A stretch of 64,000 bases of DNA. Source: Gammaproteobacteria bacterium. GTDB lineage: Bacteria; Pseudomonadota; Gammaproteobacteria; Steroidobacterales; GCA-2729495. The translations under genes and the position numbers were made by a program. The notes under the pieces were generated by a model. It made no database searches. It saw nothing but the letters and a program-made list of their open reading frames with translations, and had not been told where the DNA came from. Positions 2,049 through 63,924 of this stretch are shown here, in pieces (position 1 is the first letter of the stretch; every line of letters begins with the position of its first letter). The stretch is from contig JAUHYQ010000004.1 in the NCBI GenBank assembly GCA_030426355.1, forward strand, positions 372,001 through 436,000, in the 5' to 3' direction.

Positions 2049-5000
2049 TCAATGGAAATCACGGCTGCTGATCACCAGATCTTCGAGCAATGGGGCGCGG
2101 TCTATGAGATGACTGGCTATCACATGCAATACTCCGTCCTGTCGCTGCAGACGGCCGCGAACTTCCAGCAAATAAGAGTTAAGTAATACGCTACGTTGCC
2201 GCTCGGCGAGTTGCTTCCAAACCACCAGATTAATGAAACCCGTTTCGTCTTCCAGCGTGACAAAGGTAACGCTCTTTGCGCTGCCCGGGCGCTGCCGCGT
2301 AATGACCAACCCGGCCGTGACCACCTCCTGACCGTCAGACAATTGCCACAGCTGCTGTGCCTGCAGGCAATGATCCGCAAGCCGCCTTCGCACCAGACTC
2401 ATCGGATGTTCGCGCAGAGTCAGGCCGGTACTTGCGTAATCGTTGACGACTGAAAGCATCCTGCCAGGTGTCGACAGCAAAGGCTCGGCTTCATTAAAGG
2501 CAGGAATATTCAGGAGCGGCAGAGGCTTCTCAACCCCGGCCACCTGCCAGCGAGCACGATGCCGATTCCCCGTAATGCCCTGCAAGGCATCTGCCGCGGC
2601 CAGTGCGCCAAGTTCATGCGCATTCAACCCTGTGCGTTGCGCCAGATCGGTGGTGCCGATAAAGGGTTGTTGATCTCGCGCCGCCACTAATTGCCGGGCG
2701 GCATCTGCAGATAATCCCTTGACGCGGTTAAAACCCAGGCGCAAGGCCGGACGGGTAAAATCACCTTGCTCCAGAGAACATTCAACCAGGCTGCGGTTCA
2801 CATCCACCGGACGCACTTCCACGCCATGTCGCCAGGCCATCTGCACCAACTGCGAAGGCGCATAAAAACCCATTGGCTGACTGTTCAATAAAGCACAGGT
2901 AAACGCAGCCGGCTCGTGGCACTTCAGCCACGCTGAAACGTACACCAGTAACGCAAAACTCGCGGCGTGAGACTCCGGAAATCCGTATTCACCAAACCCC
3001 TGAATCTGATTAAACAACTGACGTGCAAAGCCCTCTGCATAACCGCGTGCACGCATGCCATCGATTAATCGAGCTTCAAAAGGGCCCAGACCGCCCCGCC
3101 GCTTCCAGGCCGCCATCGCCCGCCGCAACTGATCGGCTTCTCCGCCGGAAAAGCCCGCCGCGACAATGGCCAGTTGCATCACCTGCTCCTGAAAAATGGG
3201 TACGCCCAGGGTGCGTTTCAGTACCTCCCGCACAGCTTCACTTGGATAAGTGACAAGCTCCTGCCCGCTGCGCCGACGCAGGTAAGGGTGCACCATGTCA
3301 CCCTGTATAGGCCCTGGCCGTACAAGTGCGACCTCAATCACCAGATCATAAAAGCAACGCGGTTTCAGGCGTGGCAGCATGGCCATCTGAGCCCGTGACT
3401 CAATCTGAAAGACACCGACCGTATCGCCCCTGCTCACCATGTCGTAGACCTGCGGGTCTTCGGCAGGGACTGTTGCCATAGTCAGGTTGCGACCATTCCA
3501 GTTACGCAGCAAGTCAAAACTGCGCCGGATGACGGCCAGCATTCCCAGTGCCAGTACATCGATTTTTAGCAAACCCAGATCGTCGAGGTCGTTTTTGTCC
3601 CACTGGATCACCGTGCGCTCCTGCATCGCCGCATTTTCGATCGGTACCAGTTCGTGCAGGGGGCGTTCTGAAATCAGAAAGCCTCCAACGTGCTGAGAAA
3701 GGTGCCGGGGGCAACCTAACAACTGCGAAACCAGCACCAGCAAACGCCGCATCCGCGGGTCGGCAGGGTTCAGGCCGGCCTCAACCACCCGCTCGGCCTT
3801 TATTTCAGTACCATCCCACCACTGCATAGCCCGGGCCAGCCGGTGTGTCTGATCTTCGCTGAAACCTAACGCCTTGCCCACATCACGAATGGCACTGCGC
3901 GGCCGGTAAGTAATGACGGTGGCCGTTAGCGCGGCCCGGTCACGACCGTACTTGTTGTAGATGTACTGGATGACCTCCTCGCGTCGCTCATGCTCAAAAT
4001 CAACATCAATATCCGGTGGTTCATTGCGCTCTTTGGAAATAAAGCGCTCGAACAACATACTCATGCGCGCCGGATCCACCTCGGTAATCCCCAGGCAGAA
4101 GCAAACAGCGGAATTGGCTGCCGACCCGCGCCCCTGACAAAGAATGCCGCGCTCGCGGGCGAAACGCACAATGTCATGAACTGTCAGAAAATAGCCCTCG
4201 TAGCGCAACCCGGCGATTACCCTGAGCTCGTAATCCACCTGCTGTTGCACAACGTCCGGCGCACCGTCCGGCCAGCGCCAGTGCAAACCTTGCTCTGTCA
4301 GCCGCCGCAACCAGTCGGTTGGCGTCATACCGACGGGTACCAGTTCACAGGGGTATCGGTACTCAAGTTCATCCAGCGTGAACCGCAAATCAGCTGCAAA
4401 ATGCACACTTTCAGCCAGCCACGCCGAGGGGTAAAAGAGCGCCATTTGCTCAAGCGGACGCAGAAAGCGCTCACCGTTCGGATGCAGATGGCCGACCGCA
4501 TCAGCAACCGTAAGCCCCAGTCGGATGGCCGTTAACGTGTCTTGCAGCGCACGACGGCCGCGAACGTGCATATGCACGTCTCCTGCAGCCACTATTTCAC
4601 ATGATGTTTGATCTCTAAGAGATTCATATTGTTTTATTTTTTCTTCAATGCAGCCGTCGGGAAAGAGTTCAGCAGCCAGCCGCAGACGGTTGCAAAACAA
4701 CCCCTGCAAGTGACGAATATGCGCCGCGTCATCCGGCAGGCCCGGCAAATACAGCACCTTGCAGCCCGGCAGACCGCTGACCAGATCGGCAAACCCCAGC
4801 CGGTACTCGCCTTTGATTGCTGCCCGCCGTGCACGCGTAATCAGCCCGCATAATTCAGCATAGCCCTGCCTGCTGGCAGCTAATACCAGCAAGCGCGGCC
4901 CTTCCTGCAAGGTGAATTCACTGCCGATTATCAGACGCAGTGAATACTGGCGGGCGGCCATGTGGGCGCGCACCACGCCCGCGACTGAACACTCGTCGGT

Positions 5001-5135
5001 CAATGCCAGCGCGGTGTAACCTAACGCAGCAGCCTGCTCCACCAGTTCTTCCGGCGACGAAGCCCCCCGCAGAAAAGTGAAATGGCTGATGCAGTGGAGC
5101 TCGACGTAATCGGCGTTATTACCTGTCGACGTCAC
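2049..5135 (-). CDS. dnaE2: Error-prone DNA polymerase DnaE2 (ImuC)
   Basis: This C-family polymerase of 1028 residues is the catalytic subunit of the ImuA-ImuB-DnaE2 translesion machinery. The N-terminal PHP domain begins YVELHCISHFTFLRGASS. The catalytic core holds the PPDIDVDFEHERR motif, and the C-terminal part has an OB-fold-like segment (TAGLVITRQRPGSAKSVTFV). Length is normal for DnaE2 and shorter than replicative DnaE. I choose the GTG at 5135 because it overlaps the imuB stop as GTGA; a longer frame to 5189 would add 18 residues unlike the family. A short AT-rich patch lies near 4590-4660. It is the last gene of the lexA operon. Confidence 0.93.
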   Translation of the reverse strand: MTSTGNNADYVELHCISHFTFLRGASSPEELVEQAAALGYTALALTDECSVAGVVRAHMAARQYSLRLIIGSEFTLQEGPRLLVLAASRQGYAELCGLITRARRAAIKGEYRLGFADLVSGLPGCKVLYLPGLPDDAAHIRHLQGLFCNRLRLAAELFPDGCIEEKIKQYESLRDQTSCEIVAAGDVHMHVRGRRALQDTLTAIRLGLTVADAVGHLHPNGERFLRPLEQMALFYPSAWLAESVHFAADLRFTLDELEYRYPCELVPVGMTPTDWLRRLTEQGLHWRWPDGAPDVVQQQVDYELRVIAGLRYEGYFLTVHDIVRFARERGILCQGRGSAANSAVCFCLGITEVDPARMSMLFERFISKERNEPPDIDVDFEHERREEVIQYIYNKYGRDRAALTATVITYRPRSAIRDVGKALGFSEDQTHRLARAMQWWDGTEIKAERVVEAGLNPADPRMRRLLVLVSQLLGCPRHLSQHVGGFLISERPLHELVPIENAAMQERTVIQWDKNDLDDLGLLKIDVLALGMLAVIRRSFDLLRNWNGRNLTMATVPAEDPQVYDMVSRGDTVGVFQIESRAQMAMLPRLKPRCFYDLVIEVALVRPGPIQGDMVHPYLRRRSGQELVTYPSEAVREVLKRTLGVPIFQEQVMQLAIVAAGFSGGEADQLRRAMAAWKRRGGLGPFEARLIDGMRARGYAEGFARQLFNQIQGFGEYGFPESHAASFALLVYVSAWLKCHEPAAFTCALLNSQPMGFYAPSQLVQMAWRHGVEVRPVDVNRSLVECSLEQGDFTRPALRLGFNRVKGLSADAARQLVAARDQQPFIGTTDLAQRTGLNAHELGALAAADALQGITGNRHRARWQVAGVEKPLPLLNIPAFNEAEPLLSTPGRMLSVVNDYASTGLTLREHPMSLVRRRLADHCLQAQQLWQLSDGQEVVTAGLVITRQRPGSAKSVTFVTLEDETGFINLVVWKQLAERQRSVLLNSYLLEVRGRLQRQDGVLHVIASHLIDRAPLLEDLVISSRDFH

Positions 5136-6538
5136 CCGAACAGCCCGTGCAAATACCAGTGTGAATCCCGGCAATCCCGGTAAACCCACCAGCGACTGCC
5201 GGCAGGCCCGCTCACACTGTAGTAATCACGCCGAACATCGTGACCGTCCCACCAACCCGACTCAATACGCTCGGCACGCCTTAGCAGCGGTGCAAGCGCT
5301 GGTGCATTAATACGTTGCGGAGCCTGTAATAACCACAAAGGGCGTTGCGCGACCGGCTTGCCGTTGGATTGTGCTTGTTTAACAACACCCGTTGCTGCAT
5401 CGGCAACCTGCCAGGATTTCTCAGGACGGTGTTCAACCGACAATGCGAGTCCGTGCACAGAAGCATGCCCAAGACGTGCCTGCAATTTCGCCAGCAACTG
5501 CACCTGACGAGCCGGATCAACACCGGCCGCAGGCTCTATGCCAGGCAGAGCCATGCTGGCGTATACCGGCTCAGGAAAAGCACGTGCTTTTACCGCAACT
5601 GCCACGACCGGCGCGGACAAAGTAAATCGCTCTAACCTCAAGGCGACCAATGCGTGTAAATGCCCGGTTTGCGTACTCAGCTCGCCGCCACGAATCTGTA
5701 ACGCAGAAGGCATGCTCCCGTTATGCTCGAGCCATACACCCACAGTCTGGGTGCCCGCCTGATGCTGACGCAGAAAGCGCTCCAGCCGCTGTAACAAAGC
5801 AGCGGTCGCCGCCAGCAACACCGGCGCGCTGAAAGTCTCATCGTCCAGTTCGATACGGTCGTAAAAAAACAGCGGCGATTCATGATGCTGCAGAGGTTGT
5901 GGCCTGGCACCAAAAGCCTCGTCGATGGCCTGCAAATACGCACGGCCTATACGCCGCGCAAAACCATCGCGCGGCAAGCGGCGACAGTCGGCCAGCGTAT
6001 ACACCCCCATCTGCTGTAAACGCTGCTGTATCCGCGCCGGCCAGCCCAACACCGTCACAGGAACCTTGCCTGATAGCCGCGGCATCTCGTTCATGGTTAT
6101 ACAAGCAAACGGCAACCCGGCCCGCGCCAACCAGCCAGCAGCCCGTGCTGTCGGCGCGCACGCCAGCACCGCCTGCAAAGACCGTTCACGGAGCCCCGCC
6201 TCAATCTTCAGCCGCAGTGCCTGCAAGCCACCAAACAAACGCAGGCTGCCGCCGACCTCTAGCAACAGCGCTCCTTCAGGGTCAATGCTCACAACGGACG
6301 TGTAGGACAAAGCCCATTCCGCCAACTCAATTCGGAAGGATTTTGAGGCTATAAATCTTTTTAATTCAATATTTAATGGAATAAAGCTTATACATAACCA
6401 GAGGCTCTGGGTTGACGGCGAAAGCGCGGACGGCCATACAGGCGGCTGTTGTTGAGGCGCGCCTTGCCCCCCGTCTGGTGGCGTCGGTGGACTGGTCGGC
6501 AAACGACTGCGCGCAGCGCGCCGCCGACGCTTTAACAT
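5132..6538 (-). CDS. imuB: ImuB, Y-family-like mutasome protein with shortened N-terminal region
   Basis: ImuB is a catalytically dead Y-family polymerase homologue that links DnaE2 to the beta clamp and ImuA. Family marks are LWLCISF near residue 46, LLLEVGGSLRLFGGL near 90-105, and the C-terminal RIESGWWDGHDVRRDYY with final HGLFG. The first 45 residues are a basic, Pro/Gln-rich extension. Between LNIE and the LAEWALSYTSVVS segment, about 50-60 residues that normally form the first part of the polymerase fold are absent. The frame stays open across this point, which is very AT-rich (6338-6397). The usual clamp-binding motif is also not evident. The ATG overlaps the imuA stop (ATGTTAA). Confidence 0.88.
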   Translation of the reverse strand: MLKRRRRAARSRLPTSPPTPPDGGQGAPQQQPPVWPSALSPSTQSLWLCISFIPLNIELKRFIASKSFRIELAEWALSYTSVVSIDPEGALLLEVGGSLRLFGGLQALRLKIEAGLRERSLQAVLACAPTARAAGWLARAGLPFACITMNEMPRLSGKVPVTVLGWPARIQQRLQQMGVYTLADCRRLPRDGFARRIGRAYLQAIDEAFGARPQPLQHHESPLFFYDRIELDDETFSAPVLLAATAALLQRLERFLRQHQAGTQTVGVWLEHNGSMPSALQIRGGELSTQTGHLHALVALRLERFTLSAPVVAVAVKARAFPEPVYASMALPGIEPAAGVDPARQVQLLAKLQARLGHASVHGLALSVEHRPEKSWQVADAATGVVKQAQSNGKPVAQRPLWLLQAPQRINAPALAPLLRRAERIESGWWDGHDVRRDYYSVSGPAGSRWWVYRDCRDSHWYLHGLFG

Positions 6539-7140
6539 GACAGTCGCAGGCTACCAACCCTGCCGTAACGGTTGCGCAGTATGTCGAGTTGCAACCCGCC
6601 GGCGGTTGCCGATAAGCGGATGCGCAATGGCGCGGCTGAATCATGGCGGGCAAAGCGAGCGGGTCGAAAAACAAAGCCCGGGCAACCTGCCGACTCGGCA
6701 ACCACCTGCAAACGTCGTAAGGCCTGACGGTTGAGCTGACTGAACCAACCCAGTACTGCCACACAAGCCTGCGACCGTAACGCCTGATCCATAGCCCACA
6801 ACGCATCAACAGCAGATTCAGGGCGCACCAGCAACAGCCGGGATAAGTCCAGACCATAGTCCGCCAGTGCGGGGGCATAAGGGATATAGGGTGGATTGAT
6901 CCAACAGAGCTGCTGCTGCAGTGGCTGTAATGCCGGTAACAACAACCGCAATTCTCCGATGCCTTGCGCCGTTAACAGCAGCTCTGTAATTGCTGCACCT
7001 GGCCACCCACCCTCCAGCCAGTCATCCAGCGCGGCAAAGCCGCTTGACAGTGAATCCGGCCGGCTGCCGCGACCACTGCCGTACCTCCAGATATGCGGGT
7101 TGGTGAGTAATGCCTCCTCAATGTTTGAGCGGCATGCCAT
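6532..7140 (-). CDS. imuA: ImuA, RecA-like SOS mutagenesis protein
   Basis: The 202-residue protein matches ImuA, the small RecA-related partner of ImuB and DnaE2. The segment [23 protein letters not shown] is the family's N-terminal motif, and the C-terminal part [20 protein letters not shown] is also typical. As in other ImuA proteins, the RecA-like nucleotide site is degenerate. I choose the ATG at 7140, inside the end of lexA; a TTG five codons upstream (7155) is the alternative. The overlap with lexA (23 bases) and with imuB shows a tightly coupled operon under LexA control. Confidence 0.88.
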
Positions 7141-7738
7141 TGCGTAACAAGCCAACCACTACTCCCTCAATCACCATGTGTTGATGATTGAGGTCAACTT
7201 CAATGGGCGTAAATTCTTCGTTTTCTGGCAATAACCAGACTGTGCGGCCTTCTTGTCGGTAGCGTTTAACCGTTACTTCATCATCGAGGCGCGCGACAAT
7301 AATTTGTCGGTTACGCACTTCGGGAGTGCGATGCACCGCGACCAGATCGCCATCGAGTATGCCGGCATTTTTCATGCTCATGCCCTGCACCCTGAGCAAA
7401 TAATGCGGCTCCGGGTGAAACATGGCCGGATCAATACGCACGTGGTCTTCGATATTTTCCTCGGCAAGAATGGGGTTGCCTGCGGCAACCCGCCCGATCA
7501 GTGGCAACCCAAGCTGCTCTTTGAGCACATCTTTGAGCTGTATTCCCCGGGATGCACCGGGCAGTAAATCAATGGCACCTTTACGCTGTAACGCGCGTAA
7601 ATGTTCCTCTGCGGCGTTAGGCGACCGAAAGCCAAGCTCAGCAGCTATTTCAGCCCGGGTGGGTGGCATACCGGATTCGGCGATGCAGGCGCGGATGAAG
7701 TTCAGTATCTGCGACTGGCGGGGGGTCAGTTCCGACAT
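7118..7738 (-). CDS. lexA: LexA SOS repressor
   Basis: The 206-residue protein is a complete LexA. The N-terminal winged helix-turn-helix spans about residues 1-65 ([20 protein letters not shown]). The self-cleavage site is Ala86-Gly87 in GRVAAGNP, and the catalytic dyad is Ser121 (QGMSM) and Lys158 (VTVKR), matching Ala84-Gly85, Ser119 and Lys156 of E. coli LexA. RecA filaments would stimulate cleavage and derepress the operon. Two LexA boxes lie directly upstream, so the gene is autoregulated. It is the first gene of lexA-imuA-imuB-dnaE2, an arrangement known for lexA2 genes of some Pseudomonas. Whether another lexA exists cannot be seen here. Confidence 0.96.
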
Positions 7739-18413: not shown

Positions 18414-19189
18414 TTAACGGCACCCGGCACACCGCCGCGATTGCTCAACAACTCAACCACGCGTTCCAAATCGGCCAGTGTATCGACATCCGGACCGTGA
18501 GATTCTGTATCCACCTCGACACGAATCTCCATCCCCATCCACAAAGCCCGCAATTGCTCAAGACGCTCAAGCTGTTCCAGATCACAAGGCGGTGCGGCAC
18601 TAAGCTGCCGCAATGCATCCGGACGATAAGCATAAAGCCCCAAGTGCCGATATCCGTGTGCGGCAGCATCACTCACGGAACTGCCGTGACCCACGGCGGG
18701 GATCGGTGCGCGACTGAAGTACAACGCCCGCCCGCCCGCATCGCACACCACCTTCACAACATTGGGGTCAGAGTAATCTTCAGCCGATTTCAGCGGCGTA
18801 CAGAGGGTCGCAATCGAAGCCGATGAATATCTGTTCAGTAACTTCGCAACCCGCGCGATGCTTGCCGGCGGCATCAGCGGCGCATCTCCCTGCACGTTGA
18901 CGACCGGACAGTCATCATCCCAGCAACGCTGAAAACAGACTTCTGCAACACGATCGGTGCCGGAGCGGCAATCCGGGCTGGTTAAACACACGTCCGCACC
19001 AAATGCCTCTGCCACGTCGGCAACCTGAGCGCTGTCGGTGGCAATCACTATATCAGTGGCACCGCTCTCGCCCGCCCGCATCCATACATGCTGCAGCATG
19101 GGTTTTCCGGCAATGGCCATTAACACCTTTCCTTGCAACCGCGAGGATTCATAACGTGCCGGAATAACAATTCTGAATGGGTTGTTCAT
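18410..19189 (-). CDS. kdsB: CMP-KDO synthetase KdsB
   Basis: KdsB activates KDO with CTP for inner-core lipopolysaccharide. The 259-residue protein begins FRIVIPARYESSRLQGKVL and has NVQGDAPLMPP, YFSRAPIPAV and GYRHLGLYAYR motifs. The ATG at 19189 overlaps the lpxK stop as ATGA, which decides the start over a GTG two codons upstream. In Pseudomonas a Trm112-like gene lies between lpxK and kdsB; it is absent here. Confidence 0.95.
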   Translation of the reverse strand: MNNPFRIVIPARYESSRLQGKVLMAIAGKPMLQHVWMRAGESGATDIVIATDSAQVADVAEAFGADVCLTSPDCRSGTDRVAEVCFQRCWDDDCPVVNVQGDAPLMPPASIARVAKLLNRYSSASIATLCTPLKSAEDYSDPNVVKVVCDAGGRALYFSRAPIPAVGHGSSVSDAAAHGYRHLGLYAYRPDALRQLSAAPPCDLEQLERLEQLRALWMGMEIRVEVDTESHGPDVDTLADLERVVELLSNRGGVPGAVK

Positions 19190-20196
19190 GCGCACTCATT
19201 TTTAACGGGCAGTCGACTGATGACCATATCGAGCAGCCGGGTAGCGGTAGCCTCGGACATCTCCAGGACAGCCGGAACGTACCAGACATCGGCGCCTTCC
19301 GCCGTCGTGTATTTTACGGCGTCTTTTTGCGTCATAAGCACAGGCTTCGGGCTTTTGGCCTGCAATGCTGCTATGTCGATCACACCGTGATCAGCAACAG
19401 CCGTCTCATGAACCTGCAGGCCATGTGCGCGAAGGGCATCGTAAAAACGCCCTGGGTTGCCGATGGCAGCAACGCCCCACACAGACCGGCCGGCAAATGA
19501 ACTCAATGGCCGTGTCTCTTTGCCATCAAGGCGCACGGCATCAGTCAGATCCAATGAGAACCGATCCTCGTGCTCATCACCGCCATTAAACAGCACTGCA
19601 TCCACTTCCTCCAGCCTCTGGATCGATTCGCGCAAGGGTCCTGCCGGCAGCCTCCGCCCGTTGCCAAACTGCCGCTCGCCGTCCACTACCGCAATTTCGA
19701 CATCACGATGTAGCCGGTAATGCTGTAATCCGTCATCCGAGATGACCACGTCCACGCCCTGCTCCCAAACTTTCCGGACCGCCGCGACGCGATCCCTGCT
19801 TACGACGACCGGACAACCGGTCATGCGCGCGAGCAGCACGGGCTCATCGCCGCACTCCTCCGCCGAACTGGATGCGTTTACCAGCCTGACCGAATCAGAC
19901 ACGTTACTGCCGTAGCCACGACTAACGATGCCCGGTCGGTAGCCGCGGCTAACCAACTGCGCGGCCAGCCATGCCACGACCGGTGTCTTCCCTGCCCCGC
20001 CCGCAGTAATGTTGCCGACGACAATTACCGGCACACCCGTTTCCTCGGTTGTGAATAAATTGGCTGAATAAGCCAGACGTCGCAGCGCTGCAATCAAAAT
20101 GAATAACCAGGCAAACGGCAGCAGCAAAGCCGAAAGCGGCGAGCGCCCGTACCAGCAAGACTCGCTTAATTTATGGAGCCGCGTCGCCGTGTTCAT
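19186..20196 (-). CDS. lpxK: Tetraacyldisaccharide 4'-kinase LpxK
   Basis: LpxK phosphorylates the lipid A precursor at the inner membrane. The 336-residue protein has the N-terminal membrane anchor (SPLSALLLPFAWLFILIAAL), the P-loop VVGNITAGGAGKTPVV and the GYGS/ISDDGLQHYRL motifs. I choose the ATG at 20196 because residues from there (LHKLSESCWYGRSPLS) match the family start; the frame runs open to 20295 inside msbA but those residues do not fit. It overlaps msbA by 26 bases. Confidence 0.94.
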   Translation of the reverse strand: MNTATRLHKLSESCWYGRSPLSALLLPFAWLFILIAALRRLAYSANLFTTEETGVPVIVVGNITAGGAGKTPVVAWLAAQLVSRGYRPGIVSRGYGSNVSDSVRLVNASSSAEECGDEPVLLARMTGCPVVVSRDRVAAVRKVWEQGVDVVISDDGLQHYRLHRDVEIAVVDGERQFGNGRRLPAGPLRESIQRLEEVDAVLFNGGDEHEDRFSLDLTDAVRLDGKETRPLSSFAGRSVWGVAAIGNPGRFYDALRAHGLQVHETAVADHGVIDIAALQAKSPKPVLMTQKDAVKYTTAEGADVWYVPAVLEMSEATATRLLDMVISRLPVKNECA

Positions 20197-26684: not shown

Positions 26685-27924
26685 GTCTCAATGCCCTTGC
26701 AGGGTGAGTGGCCGCAGCTCGAAGCGCAGGATAGATTGTTGCGCCCACGACCAGTAAAAAAGCAACTCCGCTTACCACGTACACATCGAACCATTCAAGC
26801 TGACTGGGTAACTGACTAATAAAATAGACGTCCGGCGCGACAAACTGGATGCGGGTTGCCCACTCCACCCAGCTCACCACCGTACCTATATTGACTGCCA
26901 GCAAGACGCCAGCGATCACACCGATCGCTGTGCCGAACAATCCGATCAGCACGCCCTCGGTTACAAAAATTTTAAGCACCGCCCATGCCGAAGCGCCCAT
27001 GGAACGAAGTATGGCAATCTCGCTACCTTTGTCCCGCACGACCATTACCAGCGTCGATACAATATTAAAAGCCGCCACGGCAACCACCATTAGCAAAATG
27101 AAAAATATGATTGACTTGGTCAGTTCAATAGAACGAAAAAAATTTGCGTGCTGCCTCGTCCAGTCACTGACATAGACTCCACCGCCATACTCAAGCGCAA
27201 TATCCCGAACAATACTGCTCGCCTGCAATGGCTCTGTCACCGCAAAACTCACGCCCGTTACGCCATCATCGAGCCGCATCAATCGCGCCATGTCATCGAG
27301 GTGCGCATAGGCCAGACCGCGATCGTATTCATACATTCCTGCATGAAATATTCCGCTCACCTCGAACCGCCGCATACGCGGCAAAAGGCCAGCGGGCGTT
27401 ACGCTTCCCTGGGGGATAAGCAACACAACCCTATCGCCGACGACTACACCCAATCGCCGGGCCAGCTCAGAACCGAGAATGAGTTTCCAAGAACCCGGTT
27501 GCAGCGTGTCCATATTGCCCTCAATAACCAGCTCTGCGGCGCCCGACACGGTTTCCTCCGCGGCGGGAACGACGCCTCGCAATTCGACCCCGGCCACGCC
27601 GGCACTGCCCACCAGCATGCCCTGCCCGCTGACAAAAGGCGCGCTGCCGGTAACACGCTTATCATTCGCGGCAATATCTGTGATTAGCTTCCAGTCATTA
27701 AGTACACCCTGCACACCCGTAACGCTGCCGTGAGACAACACGGACAATATGCGGTTTCTGACCTCATGTTCGAACCCGTTCATTACCGACAGCACAACTA
27801 TCAGCGTGGCCACAGAGACTGCGATGCCTATCACGGATATCAGCGAAATAAATGACACAAAACGATTACGGTTTCGTGACCGTAAATAACGTGTACCGAC
27901 AAATATTTCGAAGGGCCTGAACAT
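26677..27924 (-). CDS. LolC/LolE family lipoprotein-releasing permease (second copy)
   Basis: The 415-residue protein has the LolCE layout: one N-terminal helix ([20 protein letters not shown]) with [18 protein letters not shown], a large periplasmic domain (about 50-265), and three C-terminal helices in an FtsX domain ending [16 protein letters not shown]. It is a paralogue of the gene 16 bases upstream, and the two would form the membrane part of LolCDE. Which is LolC and which LolE, or whether one can act as a LolF homodimer, cannot be decided by eye. Confidence 0.9.
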
Positions 27925-34917: not shown

Positions 34918-35673
34918 TTATAGATCGCTCAGGTAGGCATCAATCACGCGGGCCGCATCCGCCATGGTCGCCCGGGCGTAGCGGACAATGTCGCTATGTA
35001 TCGCTCCGCCGTCCGCGGCTACACCGTCATCCCCGCCGCGGCCGGCCGCAGCATTCACGATCAGGGCGAGCGCTGCATAGGGTATGCCCAGCTCACGGGC
35101 GAGTGCCGTTTCCGGCATGGCGGTCATACCCACCACATCACAACCGTCGCGCTCCAGACGATCTATTTCGGCAGCGGTTTCCAGCCGTGGCCCTTGGGTC
35201 ACCCCATAGGTGCCTCGCGACGTGCAAGAGACCCCTGCGCGCTCACAGGCATGAATAAGTTTTTGCCTCACATTACTGTTATAAGGGCTTGTAAATTCTA
35301 TAAATTCCGTAGGCCCTTCTGCGGCATCGTAAAAGGTGTGCGCCCGACCCCAGGTGTAATCGATCAGTTGATCCGGGATTACCAGCTCGCCGGCGGGCAC
35401 ACTGATACCTCCCACGGCATTCAAAGCGATGATCTGCTCAGCGCCCGCGTCTTTGAGTGCCTGCAGGTTGGCTCGGTAATTAACGCGGTGCGGCGGTATG
35501 CGGCCGCTAAGACCGTGACGGGCCAGAAACATCACGGTGTGGCCGTGCGCGCACCACTGCTCTATCGGTGCCGAGGGTTGACCCCAGGCATTATCGCCCG
35601 CAAGCAGTTGGGCATCGTTGCGGCCTGGAAAATAATCCGCGCCGGTACCGCCGATAACGGCAACCACGGTCAA
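34918..35673 (-). CDS. S-methyl-5'-thioinosine phosphorylase (MTIP)
   Basis: The 251-residue protein belongs to the MTA phosphorylase family: VVAVIGGTGADYFPG, ARHGLSGRIPPHRVNYRANL, NAVGGISVPAGELVIPDQLIDYTWGR split by short loops, and TQGPRLETAAEI. Near the C-terminus it reads ALIVNAAAGRG where adenosine-specific enzymes have a TDYD-type segment, so 6-oxopurine substrates are expected, as shown for PA3004. The TTG start overlaps the hpt stop (TTGA) and follows AGGAG. Product hypoxanthine could be used by the adjacent phosphoribosyltransferase. Confidence 0.85.
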   Translation of the reverse strand: MTVVAVIGGTGADYFPGRNDAQLLAGDNAWGQPSAPIEQWCAHGHTVMFLARHGLSGRIPPHRVNYRANLQALKDAGAEQIIALNAVGGISVPAGELVIPDQLIDYTWGRAHTFYDAAEGPTEFIEFTSPYNSNVRQKLIHACERAGVSCTSRGTYGVTQGPRLETAAEIDRLERDGCDVVGMTAMPETALARELGIPYAALALIVNAAAGRGGDDGVAADGGAIHSDIVRYARATMADAARVIDAYLSDL

Positions 35674-53215: not shown

Positions 53216-54112
53216 ATGAATCTGGAACATCTCAAGCTGGATCCCCTCGGGTCGTGGTCAGCCATCCGCGTCAGCGGCGATGATCGGGTTTCTTTCTTAC
53301 AGGGACAACTCACGCGGGACATCCGCAAAGTGACTCCGCAGGCACCGGCCCTGACTGGCTGGGCCAACAATAAGGGGCGCCTGCTCTGTACCGGCTGGGT
53401 TATCAACTGGGCAAACGCCCTGTGGTTGCTGCTGCCGGCTGAACGATGCGCCGCCGTGGCGCAGCGGCTGAGGATGTTCATCCTGCGCTCAGCCGTTGAG
53501 ATCAGCACGCCGGACACACCGGTCTGGCTAGCAGAAAACACTCAGGTAAATACTAATGATAGTTCTGTTTCGCTTTGTTTTTATGATGATTATTCATATG
53601 TTTTTTTTCCGCTGGGCTCAGACGCACCGGGCCTATTGCTTGGCCAGCGACCGGAATCGGGACAGCCTGATACGACCGGTGATGCTTCCGGGACCGAATG
53701 TCGCTGGCGGGCGACTCTGATCAGGGCGGGCGTACCCACTATTTATGACGCCACGACGGAATATTATGTCCCGCAAATGGTTAACCTGGACCTGCTTAAC
53801 GGCATCAGCTTCGATAAGGGCTGCTACGTGGGTCAGGAAATTGTGGCCCGCACGCATAACCTCGGCAGAATTAAACGACGAATGTTTGCGTTTAGCTGCC
53901 GCACCGGTTCGGCCGCTCATGCCGGCAGCGAGATCTATGCCGGGGAAGACCTGGCCGGGACGGTGGTTGACGGACTTGCGCAGGGTGACTCAGAGTATCT
54001 TCTGGCAGTCGTAAAGCTAGACAAACTTGCCGATGAACTGCACCTGCACTCGCCCACTGGCCCCGCTTTGACCGTTGGAGAGTTGCCCTACCTGATTCCG
54101 GAACAACTCTGA
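53216..54112 (+). CDS. ygfZ: Folate-binding iron-sulfur protein YgfZ
   Basis: YgfZ is a GcvT-like folate-binding protein that supports iron-sulfur cluster enzymes. The 298-residue protein has the diagnostic GISFDKGCYVGQEIVARTHN near residue 200, with Cys and the GQE triplet. AGGA before the ATG is a good ribosome binding site. A stretch near residue 115-130 (SLCFYDDYSYVFFPLG) is encoded by markedly AT-rich DNA. The gene is divergent from the SDHAF4-like gene; complex II contains several iron-sulfur clusters, so the placement makes sense. Confidence 0.92.
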   Translation: MNLEHLKLDPLGSWSAIRVSGDDRVSFLQGQLTRDIRKVTPQAPALTGWANNKGRLLCTGWVINWANALWLLLPAERCAAVAQRLRMFILRSAVEISTPDTPVWLAENTQVNTNDSSVSLCFYDDYSYVFFPLGSDAPGLLLGQRPESGQPDTTGDASGTECRWRATLIRAGVPTIYDATTEYYVPQMVNLDLLNGISFDKGCYVGQEIVARTHNLGRIKRRMFAFSCRTGSAAHAGSEIYAGEDLAGTVVDGLAQGDSEYLLAVVKLDKLADELHLHSPTGPALTVGELPYLIPEQL

Positions 54113-63159: not shown

Positions 63160-63924
63160 CTACTTGCCCAGACTGGCGGCCAGCGCTTGCAGCGCCGCCT
63201 GGGTTTCGTCAAGAAACCAGTAGTCTGCCATCGCCCGAATATCATCGGGATCGATGCCCGACCCGTGCCCGCCATGTCCCGTTGGCAGCAGCGGGATACG
63301 GCTGTTCAGCCGCGTCTGGTTCATCGCCCGTGGCGGCAAACGCGTGAGGCTTGCCGCATACTCCACTGCGCGCTCGATAACCTTGTCCGGCTCTACCAGT
63401 TCATCAACCAAACCCAGACTCAGCGCCTGATCCATGCTCAGCAATTCGCCGGTCATCGCCAGCCGCGCTGCCGTTCGGCGCCCGACGACGGACTCCAGCA
63501 CACGCAACACGGTGGGCGGCACCGCCAGCCCCACCTGCACTTCGTTTAAGCCCATGCGAAAATCACCGCGCGCTGCTACCCGGTAGTCGCAGTGAATGGC
63601 GAGCACCGCGCCGCCAGCCGGCGCATGCCCCGTAATGGCTGCTATAACCGGCACCGGGCTGCGCAGCAGCGTCATATTCATCAGGAAAAAACGATCCCAG
63701 AATACCGTCATGGCGTTGCGCGACTGTTGCAATAGCTCAGGCACATCAAGCCCGGCGCTAAACAAGCCTTCTTTTCCCGAAATAACAATGGCTTGTGACT
63801 GATTCTTAACAGCTTTTTTATGGGCAGCAATCACTGCCTCGAGGAATGCCATGTTCATTGCATTCACCGGCGGCCGTTGCAGCCGCAGCTCGGCTATCGA
63901 ACCGTGCTCAAGAATCTCTATCAT
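63160..63924 (-). CDS. Enoyl-CoA hydratase/isomerase family protein, ECI1-like
   Basis: The 254-residue crotonase-fold protein has oxyanion-hole segments LFSAGLDV and GHAPAGGAVLAIHCDYRVA, and GLNEVQVGLAVPPTVLRVLE with one Glu where mitochondrial Delta3,Delta2-enoyl-CoA isomerase (ECI1) has its catalytic Glu. It matches ECI1 better than hydratases, which need a second Glu nearby. I infer an isomerase acting on unsaturated fatty acyl-CoA. Two ATGs in tandem are possible (63927 and 63924); GGAGG fits the second. It overlaps the end of truD and separates truD from surE. Confidence 0.78.
   Translation of the reverse strand: MIEILEHGSIAELRLQRPPVNAMNMAFLEAVIAAHKKAVKNQSQAIVISGKEGLFSAGLDVPELLQQSRNAMTVFWDRFFLMNMTLLRSPVPVIAAITGHAPAGGAVLAIHCDYRVAARGDFRMGLNEVQVGLAVPPTVLRVLESVVGRRTAARLAMTGELLSMDQALSLGLVDELVEPDKVIERAVEYAASLTRLPPRAMNQTRLNSRIPLLPTGHGGHGSGIDPDDIRAMADYWFLDETQAALQALAASLGK

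Follow-up and report, generated by a model that had tools for sequence, protein, structure and literature searches.

The imuB gene at this locus raises the question of whether a protein that lacks part of its polymerase fold can still be a working member of the mutasome. The window, that is, the whole stretch of 64,000 nucleotides analysed here, carries lexA, imuA, imuB and dnaE2 in this order. By the bounds of mechanically called open reading frames, the four minus-strand genes abut or overlap one another, the start of imuB overlapping the end of imuA (Table 1). According to the parts of four papers used here, ImuB is a hub without catalytic activity, which binds the clamp, ImuA, and DnaE2, contacting ImuA via its RecA-NT segment and, in models, DnaE2 via the thumb and ImuB-C (PMC6511836, PMC12926913, PMC11791113, PMC10421592). 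A sequence-only reading of the locus had proposed that some 50-60 residues of the N-terminal polymerase-fold region are missing at a very AT-rich seam, either through an in-frame deletion or in a divergent short lineage. We conclude that the gene very probably encodes a genuine and maintained ImuB, in which the fingers are replaced by a short AT-rich linker and which most likely remains a working scaffold.

Table 1. Features of the imuB locus, with positions in the window
Feature	Position	Strand	Basis
imuB, 468 aa, ImuB predicted to be fingerless	5132..6538	minus	open frame, ATG at 6538
ImuB N-terminal extension, Pro-rich, basic (MLKRRRR...), without M-x(6-11)-[LMI]F	6404..6538	minus	
LWLCISF, first palm strand, retained	6383..6403	minus	model strand E3-9
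AT-rich seam, 19 residues IPLNIELKRFIASKSFRIE, in the predicted place of the fingers	6326..6382	minus	
Fingerless Y-family core of palm, thumb and little finger	5567..6406	minus	structure matches
Internal clamp-motif position, SMALP not xxxLF	5543..5557	minus	alignment column
RecA-NT-like segment QLLAKLQARLGHASVHGLALSVEHRPEKSW	5411..5500	minus	conserved columns common to long and short alignments
ImuB-C beta domain, RPLWLL ... ERIESGWWDGHDVRRDYY ... WYLHGLFG	5135..5344	minus	conserved alignment block
imuA	6532..7155	minus	NF033429 ImuA, 194 bits (cut-off 150)
dnaE2	2049..5189	minus	NF004225 error-prone DNA polymerase, 1441 bits (cut-off 939)
lexA	7118..7738	minus	TIGR00498, 247.6 bits (cut-off 110.95)
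AT-rich island inside dnaE2, 25% GC	4590..4649	minus	in all four genus members read

The basic description given by that reading holds. The frame is open as claimed, LWLCISFIPLNIE leads directly into LAEWALSYTSVVSIDPEG, and the protein has 423 residues from LW to its end (425 if the preceding QS is included). Full-length members are longer, with 469-496 residues in the 18 long forms of alignment A1 (about 470 had been claimed), and positions 6338-6397 have 21.7% GC in a gene of 58.7%, in line with the earlier count of about 22%. The size of the gap was also estimated correctly, as about 55 residues are absent between LWLCISF and the palm helix that follows it. Counting from LW to the LLLE(V/I)xGSLxLFGG strand gives 45 residues in the window ImuB versus 96-112 in the long forms with both anchors found, the pattern having failed or mis-anchored in several (such as L026 and L041). 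Counted only as far as the palm helix, the median is 20 residues in short forms (range 12-47, 65 rows) and 80 in long forms (60-123, 100 rows), with ranges that are partly set by the search windows used.

The AlphaFold model of the window ImuB begins with E3-9, H14-21, H23-33, E40-42, and E48-52. That of a full-length ImuB from the same genus (G001) starts with E2-6 and H10-14 and continues with H70-84, E91-94, and E98-102, after an extra unit of E23-27, E34-38, H40-44, H53-59, and E64-67. The structure prediction advised by the sequence-only reading thus yields a window model without the strand-strand-helix-helix-strand unit of its full-length relative. The window model is built on a 10-sequence alignment (mean pLDDT 72.5, pTM 0.49) and has long runs of pLDDT under 50 in its C-terminal third; the G001 model comes from a different, deeper alignment (18 sequences, pLDDT 83.5). 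The beta-beta-alpha-alpha-beta unit is what we take, by name and bounds, to be the Y-family fingers, the module that faces the dNTP and the template base in these polymerases, and the long-form profile places the missing block on residues ~20-80 of solved DinB-type polymerases. As judged from the predicted structures, the block absent from the window ImuB corresponds to the Y-family fingers. The suggestion that the deletion changes the contact with DNA or the clamp survives only in part: the lost block would be the fingers and not the clamp-binding part, and the weak clamp motif, which is real, is a separate fact.

Structure comparison indicates that the Y-family fold is otherwise present in the window model. 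Foldseek against the PDB ranks Y-family polymerases first (best E 2.6e-11), and VIA-align gives Z 14.9 over 265 residues with an rmsd of 15.8 to a Y-family polymerase. Among the matches listed, those to Y-family polymerases have Z 13.1-14.9 over 263-296 residues, and in most of the 50 the match extends from model residue 1 or 2 to ~281. We attribute the large rmsd and the TM-scores of ~0.3 to domain placement and middling model confidence. Profile searches behave differently with the two forms: Pfam IMS (PF00817) matches 18 of 18 long forms versus 0 of 10 short forms, and the window ImuB has no IMS match, no match to the fingers profile, and no match at E 0.1 to the Pfam and NCBIfam models. 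The DinB Asp-Glu pair (LSLDEAYLDV) falls on unconserved positions of the long-form ImuB profile, where the window protein has, by eye, Gly-Ala; the alignment excludes the first catalytic Asp.

The C-terminal part has conserved blocks as well. A conserved segment at the expected position before ImuB-C is called RecA-NT-like here from that position and from resemblance only to the motif described in the portions of PMC6511836 and PMC11791113 that we drew on. The ImuB-C block, which includes ERIESGWWDGHDVRRDYY and ends in WYLHGLFG, aligns with the long forms and shares their invariant columns; its name is taken from papers and assigned by the alignment block, not by a profile. Overall, the window ImuB is 60% identical to that of G002 over 479 residues, 46% to that of G004, and 44% to the full-length protein of G001 over 434 residues.

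The short form is inherited within the genus. G002 and G004 share it, together with the AT-rich seam, with the window species, and G001 keeps the block, all of which supports an in-frame deletion; most simply, the fingers would have been lost in a single event in the ancestor of the three. The lowest 60-nt GC contents in the three short-form genes are 21.7, 30.0, and 30.0%, in genes of 59-66%, and G001 has no AT-rich seam at the corresponding place. An assembly or binning artefact draws some support from the composition of the seam, which is among the top two 60-mers of the window in AT content (0.014% of the 60-nt stretches across the 64 kb have so little GC), but the frame is intact, the assembly (G000) is 99.69% complete in 11 contigs, and related seams occur in the assemblies of two other species. 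Since three related AT-rich seams in three species make an assembly error hardly likely, we give this explanation, which the sequence-only reading had kept in view, almost no weight.

The imuB reading frame has outlasted the near-saturation of its synonymous sites. Compared with G002, imuB has a dN of 0.32 and a dS of 1.74, with corresponding values of 0.15 and 1.62 for imuA and 0.14 and 1.54 for dnaE2; compared with G004, the imuB values are 0.51 and 2.53. Outside the fingers, 67 columns are conserved across 90% or more of the 18 long forms; of these, the window protein retains 58, the trio of window species, G002, and G004 retains 58-60, and eight other short forms retain 59-64. The 7-34 residues that short forms have within the fingers columns were taken as linker or extension placed there by the aligner and were not used.

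These figures bear on a decay scenario, in which fingers and clamp motif have been lost, the gene is turning into a pseudogene, and the mutasome no longer works in this subgroup of the genus. Its appeal lies in the coincidence, within the trio, of the fingers loss with a change from LF to LP at the clamp column, in an imuB dN about twice that of imuA and dnaE2, and in a further genome of the genus, G003 (99% complete), for which no ImuB match was found. Decay is nonetheless unlikely, given that none of the three species has a broken frame although dS is close to saturation (1.7-2.5 for imuB), dN stays well below dS, the imuA and dnaE2 genes of the window are intact by family models, and the family-conserved columns are largely retained in the trio.

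The seam could also have been kept for a role in DNA or RNA, as an internal promoter or initiation region or as a rare-codon pause, with the protein change being secondary. Its AT-richness in G002 and G004, despite genes of 64-66% GC, is in keeping with this, but constraint at the DNA level finds no support in codon identity (8 of 13 same-residue codons identical in the seam vs. 42.5% of 259 elsewhere, p 0.25). No promoter-like match was found at the seam, and a terminator-like match at 6410-6398 is within chance (five found and 5.4 expected in a 4-kb region). We consider such a role highly improbable; the seam is better seen as a linker that is presumably under light constraint and whose AT-richness either dates from its origin or arose by drift.

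A search of the genome for a second copy of the seam gave nothing beyond a 17-nt match (E 1.3). Six AT-rich islands, counting the seam and that of dnaE2, occur in 61 greedy ORFs of the window. The dnaE2 island spans about residues 180-199, is rich in Lys, Glu, and Ile, and has 17-33% GC in the four genus members versus 48-82% in the other relatives read. The remaining 60-nt islands lie in a hydrophobic segment of an FtsX/MacB-type permease (27085-27144), an ORF without a Pfam match (35251-35310), a protein with a weak GCV_T match (53549-53608), and an enoyl-CoA hydratase (63760-63819).

Beyond the genus, 224 loci from relatives and public contigs yielded 215 ImuBs and 181 distinct cores, after nine loci had been dropped (seven for weak matches, the other two, L136 and L138, as pieces of one split gene). 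The distinct cores comprise 108 long forms, 72 short forms, and one that a contig edge leaves unclassifiable; since candidates were in part chosen for their apparent shortness, the share of 72 in 181 should not be read as a frequency. By family code, the short rows number seven in f1, two in f2, seven in f6, and 56 in f11. In the window's own family, seven of 30 classified genomes have the short form (G027, truncated by a contig end, and G187 are outside this count), and in f6 it is seven of 13, with the split gene of G125 excluded. In that genome, the short imuB is matched at 18859-19707 (L136) and 18476-18823 (L138) of contig C408 in two frames that differ, which may reflect a frameshift or an error of sequencing. 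The earlier idea of a divergent lineage form holds insofar as the form is shared in the genus, but it is no one-off, since ImuBs from four family codes of the order lack the block; the same length and pattern in many families, named beforehand as the opposing outcome, is largely what the short distinct ImuBs represent.

The fingers seem, from these sequences, to have been lost many times in related bacteria. A FastTree core tree with the fingers excluded requires 17 changes between the forms, at least 14 of them forced by starred branches, though its output warns of long branches, including short L202 joined with long L204. A 57-row IQ-TREE quick tree, with one row per genus and state and four for the window's genus, gives 15 changes, at least 11 of them forced. 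Nine rows that have long branches or are unclassifiable are absent from it, and of the loci without a genus code only five are included; the short forms L034, L035, L047, and L051 are among the omitted rows. A single short-form clade is rejected on this tree (p-AU 2.8e-5), while its shuffle control (308 and 352 of 500 as low) says nothing because of the sampling of the tree. If the fingers cannot be regained (Dollo), the 57-row tree implies 15 losses and the 181-row tree 18. The linkers listed vary between groups in length and sequence, as expected of separate loss events, and such recurrence suggests that the fingers are dispensable to ImuB. Among loci L001-L144, imuA adjoins all 27 distinct short and all 73 long imuB genes, and dnaE2 adjoins 24 and 64 of them, respectively; absences of a neighbor are weak evidence, as the flanks cover only ~1.5-3 kb. 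The plasmid-borne ImuBs of Rhodanobacter and Paraburkholderia, used as outside controls, retain the block by eye.

The clamp motif had been described as not obvious, and rightly so: SGSLFG of the full-length G001 protein is SMALPG in the window. No canonical QxxLF-like pentapeptide occurs before the RecA-NT-like segment of the window ImuB, and the internal clamp column reads ALP in the window, DLP in G002, TLP in G004, and SLF in G001. Across the sample, 39 of the 108 long forms and 12 of the 72 short ones have LF at this column, with LW in seven and 27 and LP in 11 and five, respectively; LF, LW, or LL combined account for 64 long and 43 short forms. With counts so mixed, ImuB cannot be defined in this sample by a canonical motif. 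Loss of the motif as a result of fingers loss is likewise not a general rule, as LP is found in both forms and fingerless proteins with LF or LW are common (39 of 72). No convincing replacement QxxLF-type motif common to the trio was found in ImuA, ImuB, or DnaE2; QMALF in the window DnaE2 (residue 248) is unshared, and QMAML in DnaE2 is also present in G001.

A second candidate motif lies in the N-terminal extension. The pattern M-x(6-11)-[LMI]F, framed after viewing the sequences and with a Met that is not a proven start, occurs in 39 of 170 distinct ImuBs versus a mean of 1.85 and a maximum of six in 300 shuffles; the rows are related, and the count covers readable extensions only (11 of 181 left out). 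It is spread over 23 of 73 genus codes or unnamed loci, with L004, L018, L021, L034, L100, L150, L153, and L210 among its carriers. Read with what we take to be the clamp pentapeptide consensus, it is mostly [TSQ]-x-x-L-F, the residue three before L being T in 24, S in seven, and Q in six; D precedes LF in 20. By sequence, it looks like a beta-clamp pentapeptide (cf. QxxLF in the part of PMC12926913 consulted). The G001 extension carries QLQLF, and those of the trio have no [LMI]F or [LMI]W. A move of the motif to the N-terminus is not supported, as there is no clear exchange with the internal column (present in six of 16 proteins with xP, 26 of 109 with xF or xW, five of 27 with xL, and two of 18 others).

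A search of the window's genome (G000) with PF00817 gave no match, and the same search gave a match in 11 of 14 known genomes used as a control. By this test, the genome lacks both DinB and UmuC, and apart from the fingerless ImuB no Y-family homologue was found in it. A link between fingers loss and loss of DinB or UmuC is not supported: in the window's own family, a strong IMS match is found in one of seven fingerless versus 10 of 23 long-form genomes (11 if the G005 fragment is included; p about 0.2), and in f11 an IMS match occurs in 53 of 56 fingerless genomes. Y-family content also differs within the genus: in G003, where no ImuB match was found, a single open frame, of 428 residues, matches IMS (E 1.2e-37).

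The closest point of reference is Pseudomonas ImuB (L052, ImuB1 group, Proteobacteria), with which the window protein shares a Y-family core without the catalytic Asp-Glu, a RecA-NT-like segment, and ImuB-C. It differs in lacking the fingers, in having LP rather than LF at the clamp column, and in its missing Pfam IMS match. The window's gene order is also like that of Pseudomonas, where we presume it to be the same. Mycobacterium ImuB (ImuB2) is likewise a non-catalytic mutasome hub, but it has a functional QLPLW clamp motif, as given in the parts of PMC11791113 and PMC10421592 used here, for which the window ImuB has no match.

Reduced ImuBs as a general kind are already in print. In the portions available to us, Timinskas et al. 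2026 (PMC12926913) describe deletions that affect different structural elements in many ImuBs of either group, with the little finger, thumb, and ImuB-C kept even in the most reduced ImuB, a description that the window protein fits. What the present analysis adds to those portions is which unit is lost, that the loss is shared in the genus, how often it recurs in one order, and what was found on the clamp motif, including its change in the genus. In the literature consulted, we found no published statement of fingers loss in ImuB or of an N-terminal clamp-like motif, supplementary Fig. S22 of that paper aside.

In the favored reading, the fingers of a dead Y-family fold were deleted and a short AT-rich linker took their place, with the palm stub, thumb, little finger, RecA-NT-like segment, and ImuB-C probably all retained. 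Since ImuB has no catalysis, dNTP binding by the fingers is not needed, and they would be the part expected to be expendable. The fingers would then be functionally irrelevant and not replaced by something else. Because the regions reported to bind DnaE2 and ImuA are retained, the scaffold function is most likely intact: the window ImuB would still scaffold an ImuA-ImuB-DnaE2 translesion complex that is presumably assembled, under SOS control, and active in this organism. In mycobacteria, according to the parts of PMC10421592 and PMC11791113 used here, replacement of the clamp motif phenocopies imuB loss and the motif is essential; with the motif degraded in the trio, intact scaffold function is therefore not assured. 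We put forward with considerable doubt that the ImuB of this sub-lineage, without the fingers and both clamp-like peptides, might be a stripped scaffold that reaches DNA without an ImuB-clamp contact, and that many ImuBs of the order might carry a second, N-terminal clamp motif.

Natural deletions bear on the question of why an inactive polymerase retains its fold. The 15-18 losses in one order amount to natural deletion experiments, which suggest that the fingers can be spared and that the rest is under selection. Fingerless ImuBs escape the IMS model (none of the 10 searched is matched) and can be missed in annotation. The clamp-motif status of the genus makes dependence on the ImuB-clamp contact directly testable and, if the tentative reading is true, a stripped mutasome would dispense with the contact found essential in mycobacteria.
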